DNA of 35,865 bases from Gammaproteobacteria bacterium (GTDB lineage: Bacteria; Pseudomonadota; Gammaproteobacteria; Acidiferrobacterales; Sulfurifustaceae): NCBI GenBank assembly GCA_016194665.1, contig JACQBD010000161.1, positions 1-35,865 on the forward strand, in the 5' to 3' direction. Each line of letters begins with the position of its first letter. Within the stretch, counting starts at the first letter, position 1. This document shows, one piece after another, positions 7,959-25,408 of the stretch. Under the pieces are notes generated by a model that saw only the letters and a program-made list of their open reading frames with translations, was not told the DNA's origin and did no database searches. The translations under genes were made by a program, and so were the position numbers.

Positions 7959-8276
7959 TTACTCCGGCTCCATAGTGCACTGCAACGGGTGCTGATTTTC
8001 TTGGGCGTACATCAAAACCTGGCGCAACTTCGTCTCTGCTATCTCCCAAGTATAGATGCCGCAAACGCCGATGCCTTTCTGATGCACGTGCAGCATAATA
8101 TGAGTAGCTTCTTCGCGGTTCTTGGCAAAAAACCTTTCCAAGATGTCCACCACGAACTCCATAGGAGTATAGTCGTCGTTCAGTAAGATGACTTTATACA
8201 GCTGTGGCTTCTGCAGTTTAGGTTTAGCTTCCTGAACTACAGGACCGTCGAGATAATGTTGAGGCTTGTCGCTCAT
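7959..8276 (-). CDS. clpS: ClpS, N-degron adaptor of ClpAP
   Basis: Adaptor (N-recognin) that binds N-terminal Leu, Phe, Tyr or Trp and hands the protein to the ClpA N-domain; it also blocks other ClpA substrates. The 105-residue product has a flexible N-terminal tail followed by the binding core [20 protein letters not shown], with the Asp-Asp pair that holds the alpha-amino group, and [21 protein letters not shown], with the pocket His. It is the first gene of a clpS-clpA operon, divergent from the cold-shock gene as in E. coli and Pseudomonas. Confidence 0.98.
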
Positions 8277-14584: not shown

Positions 14585-15064
14585 ATGATCATGCCGCGCC
14601 GAATTCTCCAAGCGCTTTTTTTAGTTTTATTTATCAGTCTGACCACGGCTTGCGGTCATGGCGATCCAGACAACAATCCCCCACCGGCGAAAATGGCCAG
14701 TCGCGCCGCCGATCAAGCCTTAGCCATGGTCGGCAAGCCCTATCATTACGGCGGCAATACACCTGCCGGTTTCGATTGCAGCGGGCTCGTGCAGTACAGC
14801 TATCGCCGCGTCGGCTTCGATTTACCGCATGGAACCAGTCAGCTGCGACGCGTGTCACAAGTAATTCCACGGCAGCATTTGCAACGCGGCGATCTGTTAT
14901 TTTTTAACCAAGAAGGAAAAAAATCTTCGCATGTGGCGCTGTACCTTGGCGATGACCGTTTCGTGCACGCCCCGTCCGGCGGTAAAAAAGTTTATGTGAG
15001 CAGCTTTAATGACACGTATTGGCAAAAACATTTTAGCGAGGCGCGGCGCCTCGACGTGGATTAG
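14585..15064 (+). CDS. NlpC/P60 family peptidoglycan endopeptidase, probable lipoprotein
   Basis: Cell-wall hydrolase that cuts D-Glu-meso-Dpm type bonds in stem peptides. The 159-residue product has a hydrophobic signal (LQALFLVLFISLTTAC) ending at a plausible but imperfect lipobox with Cys23, then an NlpC/P60 domain from about residue 38: catalytic Cys65 in FDCSGLVQYSY, His116 in SHVALYLGD and a third polar residue, His128, in FVHAPS. The ATG at 14591 is an equally good start. It is probably attached to the outer membrane. The next gene starts 1 nt after its stop. Confidence 0.93.
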   Translation: MIMPRRILQALFLVLFISLTTACGHGDPDNNPPPAKMASRAADQALAMVGKPYHYGGNTPAGFDCSGLVQYSYRRVGFDLPHGTSQLRRVSQVIPRQHLQRGDLLFFNQEGKKSSHVALYLGDDRFVHAPSGGKKVYVSSFNDTYWQKHFSEARRLDVD

Positions 15065-15065
15065 C

Positions 15066-15926
15066 ATGCTGCGTCGCGCGCTCGGCGGCCGCGGCTTTCT
15101 TATCTTGCTGGCAATAAGTATTTTTGTGCCGGCGCAAACCATGGCCGATGACAGCCGCATCCTGCCGTTGAAACATCGTAGCGCGCAAGAAATCATTCCG
15201 CTGATTCGCCCCTTGCTGGGACCGGACGATGTGCTCACCGGCATGGATTACCGTTTAATTGTTCGAACCTCCGATAAAAAATTTAAAGAAATCGAGCGCC
15301 TATTGACGCAACTGGACGTGGCGCCGCAACAACTTCGCATCACCGTGCAACAAGGCGTCGCCGAAAACGACACCAATACCTCACAATCGGTTTCCGGCGA
15401 AGTGGATGTAGGCAAAAACGCACACATCAAAATTCCGCCAAAGCCATCCGATAAGCGTGGAGTCGTTATCCAAAACGATAAACTTCGATACAACGCGCAA
15501 CAACGCACTAATGTCAGTAACAGTCAAAATACGCAGATGCTCTTAACCCAAGACGGTCGACGCGCGTACATCCGCATCGGCAAACTCGTGCCGCATGTAA
15601 AAAGAGTGATCGAGTTGCATCAAAATCGATTGATTCTCACCGAAGGCGTGGAGATGCAAGATGTCACCACCGGCTTCGATGTGCTGCCGCGCATACACGG
15701 CGACCGGGTTCAGCTGGAAATTACGCCGCGCTTATCGACCTTGGTAAACCCTTCCACCGGTTTGGCGAATATCCAGACGCTCACCACCTCGGTGGAAGTA
15801 AAGCGCGGCGAGTGGATTGAATTGGGAAGTATCTTTGGAAATCGCGACGATATCCAACGCGCTATTTTAGAAAGTGCGCGCACTGAATCCGGCACGCAAA
15901 GTACGGTACGCATTAAAGTCGAATAG
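15066..15926 (+). CDS. Short secretin-like periplasmic protein (type II/III secretin domain, NolW-like)
   Basis: A 286-residue protein with a signal peptide (RGFLILLAISIFVPAQTMA, cleavage likely before DDSRILPL). Residues 27-95 match a secretin N-domain (LKHRSAQEIIPLIRPLLG, DVAPQQLRITVQQ). The C-terminal 120 residues resemble part of a secretin core (GFDVLPRIHGDRVQLEITP, VEVKRGEWIELGSI). It is less than half the length of GspD or PilQ and has only one N-domain, so it is unlikely to form a full gated pore. The frame is open from 15009, but the ATG at 15066 gives the signal peptide and follows the NlpC gene stop by 1 nt. gspB and gspA lie 3-5 kb away. Confidence 0.8.
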   Translation: MLRRALGGRGFLILLAISIFVPAQTMADDSRILPLKHRSAQEIIPLIRPLLGPDDVLTGMDYRLIVRTSDKKFKEIERLLTQLDVAPQQLRITVQQGVAENDTNTSQSVSGEVDVGKNAHIKIPPKPSDKRGVVIQNDKLRYNAQQRTNVSNSQNTQMLLTQDGRRAYIRIGKLVPHVKRVIELHQNRLILTEGVEMQDVTTGFDVLPRIHGDRVQLEITPRLSTLVNPSTGLANIQTLTTSVEVKRGEWIELGSIFGNRDDIQRAILESARTESGTQSTVRIKVE

Positions 15927-17729: not shown

Positions 17730-17868
17730 AAATTTTCCCCCAGTCGTACCACCGGTCGGCTTACCGGCCCCAAATATCGTGACAGGAATTCGTAATACAG
17801 CGCCCGCGCCTATACTTTTTGACGTAAACGATATTGCCCGGATCGAATTAAGCCCACAAGGAAGTCGC

Positions 17869-18969
17869 GTGACCACGAGAAGTATTTTTCAGAAAGTCTG
17901 TCCTGGATGCATGACGACGTTGCCGAGCGACGCGAAACAATGCGCCTGCGGATTCGATTTCGATCATACCGACGCCATCACCGGCCCAACTTCCGGTGAG
18001 ATCCGCGTGAATGCCGAAGCGCTTTACGAGACTTATCTTGCCGCGCGCGTACAACAAGCGAACGATGCAATCAAAGCAATACAAAAAGAACTCGTGCGCG
18101 ATCCGATGAACAAGAAAAAATCCATTCAGTTAATGCAAGCGATGGATGAAGCACATGCAGCCAAGGAAGCGCTGGCTGCGCAATCGGCGCATCTTGCGCA
18201 ATTAAAAAAATCTCAACAAGCAGTTGTTGCGCCGGCGACCGCGCCTTTACCTGTAGTTGCTCATGTGCCCGTTTCGGCGCCGCTTCCGATTTCGATTCAA
18301 ACGCCCGTGCCGATTCCGGTTTCCGTTTCCATCACCACAACTTTAAAAAAGCGCGCCGAGGCGCGAACGCAATCGGCGAAAAAACCCGCTGTCACGAGCG
18401 CACCAGTGCGCGCCACGACTAAAACGGTAACGGCGAGCAAATCAAATTTAAGCAGCACCAAGCGCAGGGGTAACACCGTTACTATTACCTCGTCGGTTGC
18501 CGCCAAAAAAAATTCGTCGTCAACAACCGTGCGCAAGAAACCAGTAGTTATTCCCGTTAAGACGCCGCCAACGATAGGCCCACAATCTAGACAAGCCACT
18601 CAAACAGCACAACCCAACGAAGCATTTCGACAAGCGCAATCGGCCAAAGCTGAAAAGATCGTGCGTGAAGTTCAAAACGCTCAGCCGGCGGTTGCGGTAA
18701 CGGTTCCGCCCCAAAAAGAAATAGCCTCGACCGCGGCGTCGATCGAAACAAAATTACCGTCTTTGCCCGTGGTGACGGCTAAATCCGCGCCACGTTTATA
18801 TGTTTCCAGCGATAAAAAGGATTGCCCCAATTGCACGTCGGCGGTCGCGGCCAATTTAGCGCGCTGTCGTTGCGGTTATGAATTTCCTTCGAGCGGCCAA
18901 CTTATCCCAGCGCTGTCGATGAGCGAAGAAGAGCGCGCCGAGTTCGCCAAGCTTTTTTCTAATTTATAA
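17869..18969 (+). CDS. Double-zinc-ribbon protein A with long disordered linker
   Basis: A 366-residue protein with no recognised characterised relative. Residues 11-31 are a zinc ribbon, CPGC-x10-CACGFDF; residues 47-110 a helical domain with ALYETYLAARVQQ; about 110-275 a low-complexity linker rich in Pro, Val, Thr, Lys and Ala; then AFRQAQSAKAEKI; and at 319-339 a second ribbon, CPNC-x10-CRCGYEF, followed by LIPALSMSEEER. All cysteines are present. The GTG at 17869 is chosen: AAGGAAG lies 5 nt upstream and the resulting N-terminus aligns residue for residue with the paralogue at 24803-25408. The frame is open much further upstream inside the peptidase gene, which is not real. A TATACT box lies at 17811-17816. 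Confidence 0.85.
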   Translation: MTTRSIFQKVCPGCMTTLPSDAKQCACGFDFDHTDAITGPTSGEIRVNAEALYETYLAARVQQANDAIKAIQKELVRDPMNKKKSIQLMQAMDEAHAAKEALAAQSAHLAQLKKSQQAVVAPATAPLPVVAHVPVSAPLPISIQTPVPIPVSVSITTTLKKRAEARTQSAKKPAVTSAPVRATTKTVTASKSNLSSTKRRGNTVTITSSVAAKKNSSSTTVRKKPVVIPVKTPPTIGPQSRQATQTAQPNEAFRQAQSAKAEKIVREVQNAQPAVAVTVPPQKEIASTAASIETKLPSLPVVTAKSAPRLYVSSDKKDCPNCTSAVAANLARCRCGYEFPSSGQLIPALSMSEEERAEFAKLFSNL

Positions 18970-18999
18970 AAATCACTTCTTGTTTCGGCCGGAGTTTGG

Positions 19000-19740
19000 C
19001 TAGCGCGGACGCGCGATTTTAAAACGCTCGCTGCGAAAGCTAAGCACGGTACCGTCGGCAACGATCTCTTCCACGCGTACGCCGCCCTCGATCCGATCGC
19101 CGACATGATATTCACGGTTGTTGATGAATAAAATGCGTTGCGACGCATCTTGTGAATACACGTGGATCGTGACCGCTATAGGAGGCAAAGCGTTTTGAAA
19201 TTCTTGCGGCATTTTTTGCAGCAAAGGAGTGTTATCGGTCGCTACCGTAGTGGCGCTTTCGGTTTTTTGCGGCACGGCTTTGGCAGTAATCGTATGCTTC
19301 AACGGTGACGGCGCCGGCTTTGTATTTGATTGGAGTTTGGATTTTGGTTTCAGCTTCGGTTTGGGCGCCATTGGCACCTGCGCTTCATCGGCTAAATCTC
19401 GCACGGGAGTTTCATTCTTTACCGTATTAAGCGGCGTCTGCGAAAGCACTGGCATTGTTTTTTCAGTACTGGGCGCGGCAGGTATAGGAACGGCTACCGA
19501 TGACGCCGGCGCCGCGGCAACAGGCGTTGGCGCTATCGTCGCAACCTTGCTTACCGTGCTACGCCAGAAAAAAAATGCCGCAGCCAATAAACCTAATAGT
19601 AAAACAAGTCCGATTAAGATTAACCAACCGCCGTCCGGCAAGGGCCGGGAAATATCATGCACCGCCCCACTCGGCCGCGACGTCGCGCCAGGGCGTCGCT
19701 GTTGTTCTGATTTGCGCAGTGCATCCAGAATGTAAGACAT
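19000..19740 (-). CDS. gspB: GspB-type type II secretion assembly protein
   Basis: Inner-membrane partner of GspA/ExeA in secretin assembly. The 246-residue product starts with the family signature MSYILDALRKSEQQRR, then has one membrane helix (residues 39-59, ILIGLVLLLGLLAAAFFFW), a long Pro/Ala/Lys-rich periplasmic linker with KPKLKPKSKLQ, and a C-terminal GspB domain (TIHVYSQDASQRILFINN, VEEIVADGTVLSFRSERF). The frame is open to 19968, but the ATG at 19738-19740 is certain from the N-terminal signature and follows gspA by 2 nt. No other gsp genes are in the window. Confidence 0.93.
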   Translation of the reverse strand: MSYILDALRKSEQQRRPGATSRPSGAVHDISRPLPDGGWLILIGLVLLLGLLAAAFFFWRSTVSKVATIAPTPVAAAPASSVAVPIPAAPSTEKTMPVLSQTPLNTVKNETPVRDLADEAQVPMAPKPKLKPKSKLQSNTKPAPSPLKHTITAKAVPQKTESATTVATDNTPLLQKMPQEFQNALPPIAVTIHVYSQDASQRILFINNREYHVGDRIEGGVRVEEIVADGTVLSFRSERFKIARPR

Positions 19741-19742
19741 GC

Positions 19743-21443
19743 TTAGCGCGCCTCCGGCGTAGTGGCGTCGGCCACCAAGGTCGGCGAACCGCCGGGCAAA
19801 TAACTCTGCAAGCGCGCCAAGCTGATGCGCCCGGCTACACCGTCGGACACCAGCTGCTGTCGGCTTTGGAAGTTCCTTAACTGTTGTTGCAACTCCTGAT
19901 CGAAAAGATCGCTGGCCTCGGCCACCAACGGTTCGCCGCGATAACGCGCCAAGGCATCGCGCAACCAAATAACGGATTCACCGCGATCGCCGAGATGCAG
20001 CGCGGCCTCTTCCGGCATGGTCGGTTTCCATAACAACAGATATTTTCCAAACCACACTCGGTCCACTTCGCTCAGGGGAAAATCGTATTGCTGTCCGCCC
20101 AATTCCAACACCACCGCATCGGGCTTAAGCGCCGCAACCAAGGCGTGATATTTACGCCCGGCGGTATCTTGCAGTTCGATAATCGCCGGACGGTTATAGC
20201 TACGCAAACTGCTCCACGCTCCCACTTTATAAAGACAATGCAGTCCTGCGTTCAATGCGCGTTCACAACCGGTCTTGCCCTTCAAAACCGCGTAGTCCAA
20301 ATTCCAACGCTCAAAAAGATGTTTCATCGCCGACTCGGTATCTGCAGTCACTTCGGCATTGGCCAATAGGGATTCGAGCGTGACAACGGGTTTGGTGTTT
20401 GCCGGCGTCGCCAATGTTATTTCCGGCGCTGAAGTTTTCGCGGCGGCGACTTGCGCCACGGCAATATTATTATTTTCTTGCGCAGCAACAGGCGTCGTGG
20501 CGCTGACCGCTTCATTGGCCGACGGTGATTTGGCGGCGCCCGACCACCATAACCATGCGCCTGCTAATAAAGCCGCCGTCATCGCGGTTGGCAATAGCAC
20601 ATGCGTCACGGGCGTGAGCCAGCGGCGCTTAGGCTTGGTCGATCCGACTTCGGCGGCGGCGCGCCGTACAATGCTTACGTCTACCGTGGATTTTTCGCGC
20701 GTGTACGCGCCAAGCAAAGCGCGGTCGCAAATAATATTGATAAGGCGCGGGATGCCGCCGGAAATGCTGTACACGCGTTCCATCGCGGTTCTTTCAAACA
20801 GCGTGGTCTTGGCGCCGGCGACGCGGCAACGATGCACGATGTAATCGAAAGTTTCTTTGCGCGTGAGCGCCGCCAAATGGTAACGCGCGGTAATGCGTTG
20901 CGCGAGCTGGCGCAAGTCGCGCTGCGCCAGCAGGCTGGAGAGCTCCGGCTGGCCGATGAGAATAATTTGCAGTAGTTTCTGCTTGGTCGTTTCCAGATTG
21001 GTGAGCAAACGAATTTGCTCCAACACTTCGCGGTTTAAATTTTGCGCTTCGTCGATGATCAGCACGGTGCGCCGGCCGCGCGCGTGATTTTGCAACAGCT
21101 GTACATTGAGCGCATCGATAAGCCGCTTGAGACTGGCGTGTTCACTGGGGCGCGGAATCTGCAGTTCATCGCAAATTGCGGCGACAAACTCAGCCACGGT
21201 CAATACCGGATACAGAATCAAGGCGATATCCACTTCATCCGGTAAACGTTCCACCAAAGCGCGAATCAGCAAAGTTTTGCCGGTGCCGACCTCGCCGGTC
21301 AACTGCGCAAAGCCGCCGCCTTCGCCTAAACCGTATTGCAGGTGCGCAAGCGCCTCCAGGTGGCCGCGGCTCAAATACAGATAGTTCGGGTCCGGCGGAA
21401 TCGAAAAAGGATTTTCGCGTAGACCGAAATACTGGAGATACAT
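19743..21443 (-). CDS. gspA: GspA/ExeA-type AAA ATPase
   Basis: Inner-membrane ATPase that, with GspB, remodels peptidoglycan and inserts secretins. The 566-residue product starts MYLQYFGLRENPFSIPPDP, the family N-terminus. Walker A is GEVGTGKT (50-57), Walker B VLIIDEAQ (127-134), and QRITARYHL follows as a sensor region. One membrane helix lies at about 279-300 (VLLPTAMTAALLAGAWLWW). The periplasmic part has a peptidase-C39-like stretch (ESAMKHLFERWNLDY, ALNAGLHCLYKVG) and a C-terminal peptidoglycan-binding domain (VIWLRDALARYRG, LRNFQSRQQLVSDGVAG). First gene of the gspA-gspB pair, divergent from the YeeE pair. Confidence 0.95.
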   Translation of the reverse strand: MYLQYFGLRENPFSIPPDPNYLYLSRGHLEALAHLQYGLGEGGGFAQLTGEVGTGKTLLIRALVERLPDEVDIALILYPVLTVAEFVAAICDELQIPRPSEHASLKRLIDALNVQLLQNHARGRRTVLIIDEAQNLNREVLEQIRLLTNLETTKQKLLQIILIGQPELSSLLAQRDLRQLAQRITARYHLAALTRKETFDYIVHRCRVAGAKTTLFERTAMERVYSISGGIPRLINIICDRALLGAYTREKSTVDVSIVRRAAAEVGSTKPKRRWLTPVTHVLLPTAMTAALLAGAWLWWSGAAKSPSANEAVSATTPVAAQENNNIAVAQVAAAKTSAPEITLATPANTKPVVTLESLLANAEVTADTESAMKHLFERWNLDYAVLKGKTGCERALNAGLHCLYKVGAWSSLRSYNRPAIIELQDTAGRKYHALVAALKPDAVVLELGGQQYDFPLSEVDRVWFGKYLLLWKPTMPEEAALHLGDRGESVIWLRDALARYRGEPLVAEASDLFDQELQQQLRNFQSRQQLVSDGVAGRISLARLQSYLPGGSPTLVADATTPEAR

Positions 21444-21650
21444 TTTTACTCTGCCTCAGCTGTTTATGCTCATTGCCGGGCTACTTATGCCCGGATTAAA
21501 ACTTTTATGCATCTCAACATCATCCTTAAGCCACTGATGTTTAGCGTTTTGCATCCTTTATGGGTGCATACGATAGCATTATTTGTTCTCGCCTTCCTCG
21601 CCATGTTACAAAACTCACTCTCGCATGTAACTGTTCCTGGAGAATTCAGC

Positions 21651-22154
21651 ATGTCGCATAGTATTTTGTGGCCTGGGTGGCTGGCCGGTTTAGCCATTGG
21701 TTTGCTGGCTTTAACTCAGCTGTGGCTGAGCAATCGCCAGCTCGGCGTGTCGCAGAGCTACGGTCACTTGTGCGGCTTGATTTCTCGTGCAGGAACATTT
21801 CGCCGCAGCGAACTCGCGGCCACGGATCATTGGTTGTTGTGGTTTTTCTTAGGCCTGCCTCTCGGTGGTTTTATCGCCGCAGTGACCGCTTCCGACGCCG
21901 ACTCTTTGGCGCTTACCTTTTCCATGGGTGAAATGTATGACCGCGTTTTGCCGCAAACATTCTGGCTTAAAGGCTTGATATTGACCGGCGGTGGCGCACT
22001 CATGGGCGTCGGCGCGCGTTTAGCCGGAGGTTGCACCAGCGGTCATGTGATTTCCGGTTGCGCTTTACTCAATCCGCCCAGTCTGCTGGCGGGCGCTTTA
22101 TTCTTTGCCGGCGGTTTGGCGGCGGTACAAATGTTGTTCGCATCCTTCATTTAA
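21651..22154 (+). CDS. YeeE/YedE family membrane protein, first half-transporter
   Basis: A 167-residue membrane protein with about four helices (WLAGLAIGLLALTQLWL, WLLWFFLGLPLGGFIAAV, LKGLILTGGGALMGVGARL, LLAGALFFAGGLAAVQMLF). The motif GGCTSGHVISGCA, with two cysteines, is the family signature; in the full-length thiosulfate transporter TsuA (YeeE) such cysteines relay the substrate. The ATG at 21651 has GGAG 8 nt upstream; the frame is open from 21507, where an extra hydrophobic segment (WVHTIALFVLAFLAML) could be a further helix if an upstream start is used. It is 11 nt before the second half. Confidence 0.88.
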   Translation: MSHSILWPGWLAGLAIGLLALTQLWLSNRQLGVSQSYGHLCGLISRAGTFRRSELAATDHWLLWFFLGLPLGGFIAAVTASDADSLALTFSMGEMYDRVLPQTFWLKGLILTGGGALMGVGARLAGGCTSGHVISGCALLNPPSLLAGALFFAGGLAAVQMLFASFI

Positions 22155-22165
22155 ATGAATTATTT

Positions 22166-22618
22166 ATGAAATTTATATTTCTATTTTTCGGAATACTGTT
22201 CGGATTCTTATTGAGCCGCGGCGGCGCAACCACGTTCGATATGCACGCGCGTCTATTTCTGTTTGAAAATTTTCAGTTGCTGTGGGTCATCGCCAGCGCT
22301 GTCAGCGTCGGTATTATCGGTGTTTTGATTTTGAAATGGCTACGTGCACGCGCGTTGTTGCTCGACATTCCGCTGCAGTTTGAAGGCAAAGCCATGCGCC
22401 GCTATCTAGCGCCGGGCGCGCTGTTGTTCGGTGTGGGCTGGGGGCTGACCGGTTCTTGCCCCGGTACGGCGCCCGTCATGCTGGGCGAAGGAAAGTTGGC
22501 GACACTTTTCACCCTGGGCGGAATTTTCTTAGGTACGTATGTCTATGGAATCCTGGCGCATAGAAAACGCCAAGCAGTTTGCGTTTCGCTGACGCCATCC
22601 ATGAAGGTCACAAGCTAA
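22166..22618 (+). CDS. YeeE/YedE family membrane protein, second half-transporter (DUF6691-like)
   Basis: A 150-residue membrane protein starting MKFIFLFFGILFGFLLSRGG, with helices at about 1-18, 40-58, 88-104 and 115-135. The motif GWGLTGSCPGTAPVMLGEG carries the single family cysteine. It pairs with the preceding gene; such adjacent half-size proteins are known in many proteobacteria and are thought to form one transporter for sulfur compounds. The frame is open from 22031 inside the neighbour, but the ATG at 22166 gives the membrane start. Substrate is inferred only from the family. Confidence 0.88.
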   Translation: MKFIFLFFGILFGFLLSRGGATTFDMHARLFLFENFQLLWVIASAVSVGIIGVLILKWLRARALLLDIPLQFEGKAMRRYLAPGALLFGVGWGLTGSCPGTAPVMLGEGKLATLFTLGGIFLGTYVYGILAHRKRQAVCVSLTPSMKVTS

Positions 22619-22632
22619 ATTGAAATACCCAA

Positions 22633-22671
22633 TGCCGGCGGCTGAGTCATCCGCCGGCAATTTAAGTTTTA
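22633..22671 (+). terminator. Probable terminator after the YeeE pair
   Basis: TGCCGGCGG (22633-22641) and CCGCCGGCA (22651-22659) form a perfect 9-bp stem with a 9-nt loop, followed by ATTTAAGTTTT. It lies 14 nt after the stop of the second half-transporter and before the convergent small gene at 22700. The T-run is broken, so strength is uncertain. Confidence 0.7.
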
Positions 22672-22699
22672 GATGAGTTTAGAAAGGAACGACTGAGAA

Positions 22700-22885
22700 T
22701 TACTGACGATGGTTGGGCGGTGAAACCGAATCATCCGCTGACTTAGCCGCTTGCACAATTTTGCGCAGATCGGCCAACTGCGACTGCAAAGCCTTGATGG
22801 CTTCCGACATCTCAACCGCTTCGCGCGTCGTGTCGGTTTTCACTGCGTTGCCATTTTCATGCGTAGTACGCCACGTTTGATTCAT
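22700..22885 (-). CDS. Small coiled-coil hypothetical protein
   Basis: A 61-residue soluble protein starting MNQTWRTTHENGNAVKTD. Residues 22-47 (EMSEAIKALQSQLADLRKIV) form a heptad-patterned helix likely to dimerise. It is not recognised. The start at 22883-22885 is well supported: AGGAGG lies 6 nt upstream, which argues that the gene is really translated. The frame is open 10 codons further, without support. It stands alone between convergent and divergent neighbours. Confidence 0.72.
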   Translation of the reverse strand: MNQTWRTTHENGNAVKTDTTREAVEMSEAIKALQSQLADLRKIVQAAKSADDSVSPPNHRQ

Positions 22886-23174
22886 GCAAACCTCCTTGCG
22901 TAATTCATGGTACACGAGAACTGCGATGGACCACTTCCCTACATCTGCGAACGTATGCGACGCCCGTCTATTAAGGCCGAAACATAAGGGAAATACAAGT
23001 GTAGAAGTATAGACTGTTATTTCGCTTTGTGGCCGATGACCGGAGGAAACTACACGATAGAGCGTAAAAATGGTGCTGCAACTACACTATTAACGTTTCT
23101 TAATATTGCTATGTATGGGATATGCAACAACTTGTAGGTCTTAGTCCACTATGTTTTTTGCTCGCCCGACAGCG

Positions 23175-24560
23175 CTACTCTTTCTGAACGCATTTACGAT
23201 AGATATCTTTCAGCGCGCCTTGCGGATCATATTTTTGTTTTAACTTTTCATACGCGTCCTTGTTATAAATTTTCCAAAACTGCTGCGGCGTAAAGTACGA
23301 ATCCGAATACAGCGATTTTATTCCACCGAGACTCATCACCTTGGTTTCCACCTGCCGATTGTAAAACCCGGGCGGCAATTTTTTGCGGCCGCGAATCACA
23401 TCCCAAAAACCAAAATTAACATAAAGTTTTTTCGGGTCCATCGGATAAAGATCGAATCTCGCGGCGGGATTAAAGCAACGCGTCGGGCAAATCCACACCG
23501 GCGTAAAACGAATCGTCTCATGATAGAAAGATAAAAACTCCTCAGCCGCTTCAATGGGAACTTCGACATCTTGAATGACCGATTCGGCATGCATACCGAG
23601 TAAACGCTGAAATCGCTGCAGCAGTTTCCAGCGGCTGTTCCAGCGCATGATTTGGGTATAGCTGATCGAGTTTAAACGCGATTTACCGTACAAACGTCGG
23701 ATCAGCGGATTTTGCGCGCCCAGGTTCTTCGAACACCAAAACCAATCCGTGTCCCAACGCCACAGGTAATCTTCTACGCTCAGATAATCTTCCTGGCGTT
23801 GGCGCAGCGAGCGGTAATAAATATTTTTATACGTGTAGTCGCTCACATAAGGAGCGTGGTTGGTAAATTGACCGAGCGTTATCACCATTTCCCGGCGCCC
23901 GAATACCACGCCGTCCACAAAATCGACATCGGTGCGCGCGCACTGGCGCGCCAGCTCGGCAAAGTAAATTTTCGCATCCGCATAAACCGCATGCGTCAGT
24001 TTGACATAGGGTTTTACCGGCGCCACCTTGGCCTTAATCTTTAAGGCATAACCGAGCGTGCCATAGGAGTTGGGGAAACCATAAAATAAATCGCGATGTT
24101 CGTTTTCGGGTGTGCAACAAACGATGCGGCCATCGCCTAACAGAATTTCCATTTCCTGCACTGTTTCGTGCACCAGACCATACCGAAACGACGAAGACTC
24201 GATGCCGCATCCGACCGTGGCGCCGCCGATAGTGATGGATTTTAGCTGCGGCACGACCGCGGGCATGACATGGTGTTTAAGGCATTCGGCCGCGAGCTTG
24301 GCGTAGGGCGTCATTCCTTCCACTTCGACATACTCATCTGTCACCTGCAAAACATTATTAAAGTCGCGCACGTCGAGTTTACGTGCCGAGGTTTCTTGGC
24401 GATCGCGGAACAAATTGGACGTACTTTTAGCGAGGCGAATTTCCGCGCCGCGATGATTTCGCAGATATTCCGCTAAACGTTGTTTCTTTTGTTCATAAGC
24501 GTTGAACATAACTTGGTTAATCCGCCTCGAATTTGATAATTTAAAACCAAATTGGCGCAT
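23175..24560 (-). CDS. FAD-linked oxidoreductase resembling DHCR24 (sterol delta-24 reductase family)
   Basis: A roughly 460-residue flavoprotein with an FAD_binding_4 (PCMH/VAO-type) domain. GGATVGCGIESSSFRYGL, DGRIVCCTPENEHRDLFYG, GTLGYALKIKAKVAPVKPYV and the C-terminal SLYSDSYFTPQQFWKIYN match eukaryotic DHCR24/DIMINUTO closely. It lacks the membrane anchor of the eukaryotic enzyme. Bacterial relatives include reductases of methylene or cyclopropane fatty-acid routes, so a lipid double-bond reductase is as likely as a sterol enzyme; no cfa or sterol gene is adjacent. Start is uncertain: ATG at 24560 (used), ATG at 24509, or TTG at 24641; none has a Shine-Dalgarno. Confidence 0.85.
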   Translation of the reverse strand: MRQFGFKLSNSRRINQVMFNAYEQKKQRLAEYLRNHRGAEIRLAKSTSNLFRDRQETSARKLDVRDFNNVLQVTDEYVEVEGMTPYAKLAAECLKHHVMPAVVPQLKSITIGGATVGCGIESSSFRYGLVHETVQEMEILLGDGRIVCCTPENEHRDLFYGFPNSYGTLGYALKIKAKVAPVKPYVKLTHAVYADAKIYFAELARQCARTDVDFVDGVVFGRREMVITLGQFTNHAPYVSDYTYKNIYYRSLRQRQEDYLSVEDYLWRWDTDWFWCSKNLGAQNPLIRRLYGKSRLNSISYTQIMRWNSRWKLLQRFQRLLGMHAESVIQDVEVPIEAAEEFLSFYHETIRFTPVWICPTRCFNPAARFDLYPMDPKKLYVNFGFWDVIRGRKKLPPGFYNRQVETKVMSLGGIKSLYSDSYFTPQQFWKIYNKDAYEKLKQKYDPQGALKDIYRKCVQKE

Positions 24561-24730
24561 ATTCTGTGCGCCATAGCCATTTAAACAAACGATTTCTGCC
24601 GCATGAGCTTTAATTGCTCGCAGAAATGCAAAATTTACCAAAATTAGACGCCTAATATTCCACTTATCGGCCTTGCCCTTCCAGTTATCTCATCTCGTTG
24701 AATCGTCTCGTCAGCGCGATTTATGCGATC

Positions 24731-24772
24731 TATACTTATGGCTCAAGCTTAGCTAGGCCTAAAGGATTAGGC
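24731..24772 (+). promoter_or_regulatory. -10-like box and leader hairpin of double-zinc-ribbon gene B
   Basis: TATACT at 24731-24736, the same hexamer as at 17811-17816 before paralogue A, is followed by a hairpin GCCTAA-AGGA-TTAGGC at 24757-24772 in the presumed leader. No clear -35 is visible. Function of the hairpin is unknown. Confidence 0.4.
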
Positions 24773-24802
24773 GTCAGAGGGAGTCGTCACGAGGGATATC
24801 GC

Positions 24803-25408
24803 ATGAGCGCTTTCAGCATCTATCAAAAACCATGTCCAGCTTGCGGTGCCTTGGTATCTACCAGCGCCCAACGCTGCGACTGCGGTTATGCCTTTGGTTC
24901 CGGCAACGATGCGCCCTTACCCGAAGAACAAGTATTACAAGACGAAGAACTTTTCGAAGCCTATCTCACCGCGCGAGTAGATCAGATGGTAGCGGCGGTG
25001 GAAACCGCGCGCGTCGAGTTGATGGCCGATCCTAACAATTCACGTAAGACGGTTAATCTGGTGCAAGCCATTCAAGAAGCTTTGTCGTTGCGCGACCAAC
25101 GCGAAGCCCAAGCCGCCAAAATCCTGGACGCTCGCCAGCAGTTACAGATTGCGCACGGCAAAAATCCTCTGGAAAATAATTCCTCGACGCCGACGGACGC
25201 GTTTCGCGCGCAACAAGCGGCGAAGGTGGAAAAAATCATGGAGGCTTTTGAAAACACCAAGACAAAGAAATGCCCGCACTGCAAAACAACCCTGCCCATT
25301 ACTTCGGCGCTATGCCTGTGCGGCTACGTGTTCGCGCGCGATGATTTTTTACTGCCGCGTCTCGGCACTACCGGCGTCCGCGAAAAAATTCACCATTCAA
25401 CGAAATAA
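24803..25408 (+). CDS. Double-zinc-ribbon protein B, compact paralogue of 17869-18969
   Basis: A 201-residue soluble protein. Residues 11-31 are a ribbon, CPAC-x10-CDCGYAF; residues about 45-108 a helical domain (ELFEAYLTARVDQMVAAVE, VNLVQAIQEALSLRDQREA); then AFRAQQAAKVEKI; then at 157-177 a second ribbon, CPHC-x10-CLCGYVF, followed by LLPRLG. Every element occurs in the same order as in protein A, but the long linker is reduced to about 15 residues. The ATG at 24803 has GAGGGA 6 nt upstream and gives the same Cys11/14/25/27 numbering as protein A. The function is unknown; the ribbons resemble UPF0547-type ribbons with one residue fewer between the last two cysteines. Convergent with the PilZ gene. 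Confidence 0.87.
   Translation: MSAFSIYQKPCPACGALVSTSAQRCDCGYAFGSGNDAPLPEEQVLQDEELFEAYLTARVDQMVAAVETARVELMADPNNSRKTVNLVQAIQEALSLRDQREAQAAKILDARQQLQIAHGKNPLENNSSTPTDAFRAQQAAKVEKIMEAFENTKTKKCPHCKTTLPITSALCLCGYVFARDDFLLPRLGTTGVREKIHHSTK

Follow-up and report, generated by a model that had tools for sequence, protein, structure and literature searches.

Two genes in a 35,865-nucleotide stretch of DNA from a gammaproteobacterium (the window; positions below are counted from its first letter) encode proteins with a CxxC-type ribbon near each end, here called A and B. We asked what such proteins might do, when they are made, and whether they form an isolated pair. The two genes and their parts are laid out as follows.

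17869..18969, + strand: protein A, 366 aa, GTG start, the long-linker form of a double zinc-ribbon hairpin protein
17899..17964, + strand: N-terminal ribbon of A, CPGC-x10-CACGFDF (UPF0547), codons about 11-32 (Pfam PF10571, genome scan)
17992..18228, + strand: predicted helical hairpin of A, residues 42-77 and 82-120, with the invariant YLxAR..Q (AlphaFold2, alignment)
18229..18618, + strand: disordered, basic Pro/Val/Thr/Lys-rich linker of A, residues 121-250 (pLDDT mostly <55)
18619..18681, + strand: predicted AFRQAQSAKAEKI helix of A, residues 251-271 (AlphaFold2, FRxxQ pattern count)
18823..18885, + strand: C-terminal ribbon of A, CPNC-x10-CRCGYEF (translation, alignment, genome scan)
24803..25408, + strand: protein B, 201 aa, the short-linker form of the double zinc-ribbon hairpin protein
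24833..24895, + strand: N-terminal ribbon of B, residues 11-31 (Pfam profile, genome scan)
24920..25153, + strand: predicted helical hairpin of B, residues 40-75 and 80-117, with conserved E48, L50, Y54, L55, A57, R58, Q61, and Q103 (AlphaFold2, alignment)
25196..25252, + strand: predicted AFRAQQAAKVEKI helix of B, residues 132-150 (AlphaFold2, FRxxQ pattern count)
25271..25333, + strand: C-terminal ribbon of B, residues 157-177 (translation, alignment, AlphaFold2)

The initial annotation described A and B as a paralogous pair with the same order of parts, and our translations agreed with its coordinates and with this order. In both proteins the first ribbon has cysteines at residues 11, 14, 25, and 27, and the pattern CPxC-x10-CxCG[FY]xF fit all four ribbons. 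The helical-domain motif reads ALYETYLAARV in A and ELFEAYLTARV in B, the AFR-type motif AFRQAQSAKAEKI and AFRAQQAAKVEKI, and the tails LIPAL and LLPRL, respectively. A longer open frame exists for protein A, and the start at 17869 is backed by an AAGGA site and by conserved orthologous starts. BLASTP aligned the two proteins with E = 9e-21 (35% over the first 133 residues), which bore out the paralogy; separate matches covered the C-terminal ribbon and also ran from ribbon to ribbon. This resemblance between the N- and C-terminal ribbons points to an older internal duplication. We infer that the ribbons of A and B bind zinc.

We collected the family by searching from B and then applying an iterated profile to the loci obtained. 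The B-seeded search of related genomes found relatives in 53 of 60, among them Sulfuricaulis sp., Candidatus Muproteobacteria, and a gammaproteobacterium, and the iterated profile retrieved 98 open frames, representing at least 64 distinct sequences, of which 47 have both ribbons. The paralogy stands, and A and B prove to be two members of a wider family at the level of the order. Within the order (Acidiferrobacterales, judging from these three relatives), the family was present in 43 of 44 sampled genomes and in all 19 genera, with 1 to 6 profile matches per genome. No match was found among 365 other genomes of the class or among 298 genomes of a phylum sample, and B matched nothing in phage and plasmid records. 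In the tree, the short copies of B type from six genera grouped as one clade (support 0.96), whose sister was the group of A copies from the genus of the window (support 0.93). All eight cysteines, the glycines that follow them, and Y54, L55, and R58 (B numbering) were invariant in 42 aligned members, and E48, L50, A57, Q61, Q103, F134, Q138, and A142 were nearly so. The pattern FRxxQxxK occurred 57 times in 64 proteins, against 0.7 occurrences expected from shuffles, and eight proteins carried it twice; this frequency and doubling suggest that it may behave as a tethered, conserved docking helix. The linker varied in length from a few residues in B to several hundred, with proteins of up to about 640 residues. 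Protein A had been credited with a single linker of roughly 160 residues, and the extra sequence is indeed there, but the AFR helix splits it into an N-terminal part of roughly 120 residues and a C-terminal part of about 45. We note that three loci of one genus (L029, L072, and L077) encode a third cysteine cluster, CxCTAT.P, ahead of the C-terminal ribbon.

AlphaFold2 modeled B (mean pLDDT of 84.7) as a ribbon, helices at residues 40-75, 80-117, and 132-150, and a second ribbon, and modeled A with the same parts plus the disordered linker. The helical middle domain proposed for both proteins was thus reproduced, in the form of a hairpin of two antiparallel helices of about 36 residues (36 and 38 in B), with a pLDDT of about 98 compared with about 90 for the ribbons. 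The proposal of a helical rod with a ribbon at either end did not survive this model: the chain is predicted to enter and leave the hairpin at one end, and since the hairpin would bring the chain back to its beginning, the ribbons could not simply cap two rod ends. The C-terminal ribbon would instead hang on a tether of very variable length. The proteins may nevertheless bind a partner or nucleic acid, as the initial annotation proposed. Conservation peaked in two places, the hairpin base and the FRxxQ helix. Foldseek returned no match to the PDB for A or B at E ≤ 0.001, and none to a viral library for B. A fold family could not be assigned with VIA-align, and the matches listed were all generic antiparallel hairpins (hantavirus nucleocapsid, SMC arms, the SerRS arm, and the LSD1 tower) with Z up to 11.6.

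Profile searches recognized the ribbons. PF10571 (UPF0547) matched A with 47.6 bits (1.8e-12) and B with 45.0 bits (1.2e-11), both above the Pfam gathering score of 29 bits, and it matched 41 of the 42 aligned members. Scanned as single places in the genome, three of the four ribbons exceeded this cut-off and the fourth fell just below it (28.4 versus 29 bits). PF10571 is a 26-residue motif, however, and is silent on the hairpin, the linker, the FRxxQ helix, and the twin arrangement; a scan of 140 class genomes found it in 7, and where it lay outside the order it belonged to other proteins. No model in Pfam, NCBIfam, PHROGs, or PADLOC spanned the middle domain or the whole protein; NCBIfam gave nothing above its cut-off, and PHROGs and PADLOC gave partial matches alone, at E of 8e-4 or weaker. 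The earlier statement that no characterized member was known therefore held in four libraries for the full-length protein, the ribbons being already catalogued as UPF0547. TerY_C (PF15616) matched B weakly (5.7e-4, 20.4 bits, below its gathering score of 28.4 bits) with part of the profile only, over the FRxxQ helix and C-terminal ribbon, and 14 of 42 members showed this match. Among solved structures, the best sequence matches of the family profile were the zinc ribbons of eL40 and S27a, which aligned with both ribbons at E of about 0.015-0.2, not significant; B alone gave chance helical matches (best E of 0.063). The archaeal ribosomal protein eL40, unlike the A/B family, is a single small ribbon without a hairpin, and the resemblance may reflect shared ribbon shape alone. 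Judged by title, no paper found to name UPF0547 concerned bacterial proteins, and literature searches returned nothing on Acidiferrobacter with zinc ribbon or on Sulfuricaulis with RpoS. We judge A and B to belong to a new, order-specific family made from a known ribbon type.

The upstream regions bear on when these genes are expressed.

17810..17817, + strand: CTATACTT, a putative sigma-S-type extended -10 box of A, exact in 9/9 genus orthologs of A
24730..24737, + strand: CTATACTT box of B, conserved in orthologs
22720..23012, - strand: genus-conserved small ORF of about 60 aa (62 residues in a relative) that starts at 22885 and has a CTATACTT box of its own at 23012

A TATACT box had been noted before both genes; the box is present, but its extent was understated, as the ortholog-conserved element is CTATACTT and a third, small ORF nearby also has one. 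Located 50-70 bases before the start, CTATACTT was the sole stretch conserved ahead of B orthologs and the most strongly conserved one ahead of A orthologs, and it was found with at most one mismatch in 17 of 18 upstream regions of the genus. It matches the sigma-38 -10 consensus, CTAtacT (PMC3923258; PMC2375449). Either CTATA[C/A]TT or TGCCATANTT, the form found elsewhere in the family, preceded 30 of 54 family genes (10 of 22 genera) versus 3 of 140 neighboring genes (Fisher p = 3e-17, where orthologs are not independent and TGCCATANTT was chosen after the data were seen); neither form was found in 12 of the 22 genera. In the complete genome of one relative, CTATACTT had only 17 occurrences, and this locus accounted for three of them (at A, B, and the small ORF), with no genome-wide enrichment (17 versus 44 for the reversed control). 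The genes downstream of the other sites were mixed, so the box is no proof of a regulon. RpoS scored above the cut-off in all five relatives tested, and the genome of the window has a partial RpoS-like match at a contig end. Judging from the promoter sequences, A and B are most likely under sigma-S control and transcribed individually, although the box could instead be read by sigma-70. The small ORF adjoins a dhcr24-like gene, contains the conserved sequence TSRESVEVAEAIKALQxQLADLRKIVQAAK, and is possibly co-regulated with A and B. A further CTATACTT lies at window position 8055 (- strand), within clpS and upstream of clpA. A second conserved block, ACCtGTCGG...CCCCAnATATCG (window 17748-17780), was found about 40-60 bases ahead of the CTATACTT of A in 9/9 genus copies; it may serve as a regulator site or terminate transcription of the M42 gene.

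We tentatively favor a reading, held at somewhat less than even confidence, in which A and B are cytosolic bivalent zinc-ribbon adaptors of stress or stationary phase, likely transcribed by sigma-S. Two UPF0547-type ribbons would be joined by the helical hairpin and a variable tether carrying one, sometimes two, FRxxQxAKA helices, and the ribbons would make contact with one shared type of target. The FRxxQ helix together with the conserved hairpin base would form a docking surface, either intramolecular or for a partner, and linker length would set the reach, short in B and long and basic in A. Our guess is that the target is RNA or the ribosome, or RNA polymerase, rather than GspAB; binding to the ribosome or RNA is weakly suggested by the eL40-like ribbons and the basic linker of A. 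A bolder version, in which the family represents a novel type of stress regulator found throughout the order, controlled by sigma-S and targeting the ribosome or RNA polymerase, and in which linker length and FRxxQ docking helices tune the reach of each paralog, seems to us quite unlikely.

The neighborhood raises another account, that A and B are accessory proteins of GspA-GspB (type II secretion) or of a type IV pilus/PilZ surface machinery encoded between or beside them. In the genus of the window the gene order purB - DUF7931 - nlpC - secretin-like - M42 - A - gspBA - dhcr24-like - B - pilZ - ilvD is kept, the B gene is convergent with the PilZ gene, and gspB is convergent with an A-type gene in four genera, some of them from other families of the order (gspBA at, e.g., L060, L066, and L071). 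The co-occurrence with gspAB is not constant, however: in seven other genera htpG (Hsp90) lies beside the ribbon genes, mostly in the convergent slot (e.g., L052, L054, L057, L058, L067, and L073), other genes occupy the site elsewhere, and further loci have neither gspAB nor htpG there. We set the GspAB or PilZ partnership aside because htpG takes this slot in other genera, and no partner gene was conserved beside the family genes across the compared loci. The neighbors are all convergent and never co-directional, which means that no operon exists here and that gspAB is no specific partner; A and B also lack an evident secretion signal, and their ribbons are of cytosol type. We regard this account as very unlikely. 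The window also encodes a secretin-like protein (15009-15926, + strand) with a Secretin_N and a partial secretin domain, which adjoins nlpC and the M42 peptidase gene; the three are conserved together in the order, and the protein is too short for a full GspD or PilQ.

DksA/Gre regulators have a long hairpin of antiparallel helices with zinc at the base. A comparable stress-induced regulator of the RNA polymerase secondary channel, with an Asp-containing tip (DPxN), would suit the predicted 36- plus 38-residue hairpin with ribbons at its base, which is similar in length to that of DksA/Gre, as well as the sigma-S-type box and the tip D76-P77-x-N79 (D in 25/42, P in 34/42, and N in 25/42 members). 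Yet it is the base rather than the tip that is most strongly conserved, DPxN often caps helices, neither DksA nor Gre was among the structure matches listed, no sequence relation was found, and A and B differ in having two C4 ribbons and the FRxxQ helix; we offer a DksA-like action on RNA polymerase as a guess from shape, and a very unlikely one. Nonspecific binding of nucleic acid by the ribbons and the linker of A, as in nucleoid- or RNA-associated architectural proteins, is unlikely: that linker is strongly basic (pI of 11.6 for residues 119-300; 19 K/R to 1 D/E in residues 119-250) and the ribbons weakly resemble that of eL40, but B, with a pI of 6.4, is not basic, and it and its short-linker relatives keep all the other parts without a basic linker. 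The remaining account holds that these are lineage-specific proteins that local duplication has maintained and that serve only a weak role, either structural or in zinc storage. It would fit the restriction to the order and the clustering of members, often as tandem copies, mostly in one chromosomal region from purB/M42 peptidase to ilvD; against it, residues other than cysteine (YLxxR, FRxxQ) are strictly conserved and retention across the 19 genera is near universal, and we give it little credence.

Returning to the adaptor reading, the conserved promoter box is the first concrete clue to when the A/B family acts, and it allows the question to be put to the test in cultivated strains of the Sulfuricaulis type. 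Present in nearly every sampled genome of this sulfur-oxidizing order and nowhere else sampled, the family is a signature of the lineage and is probably part of how these chemolithotrophs live.
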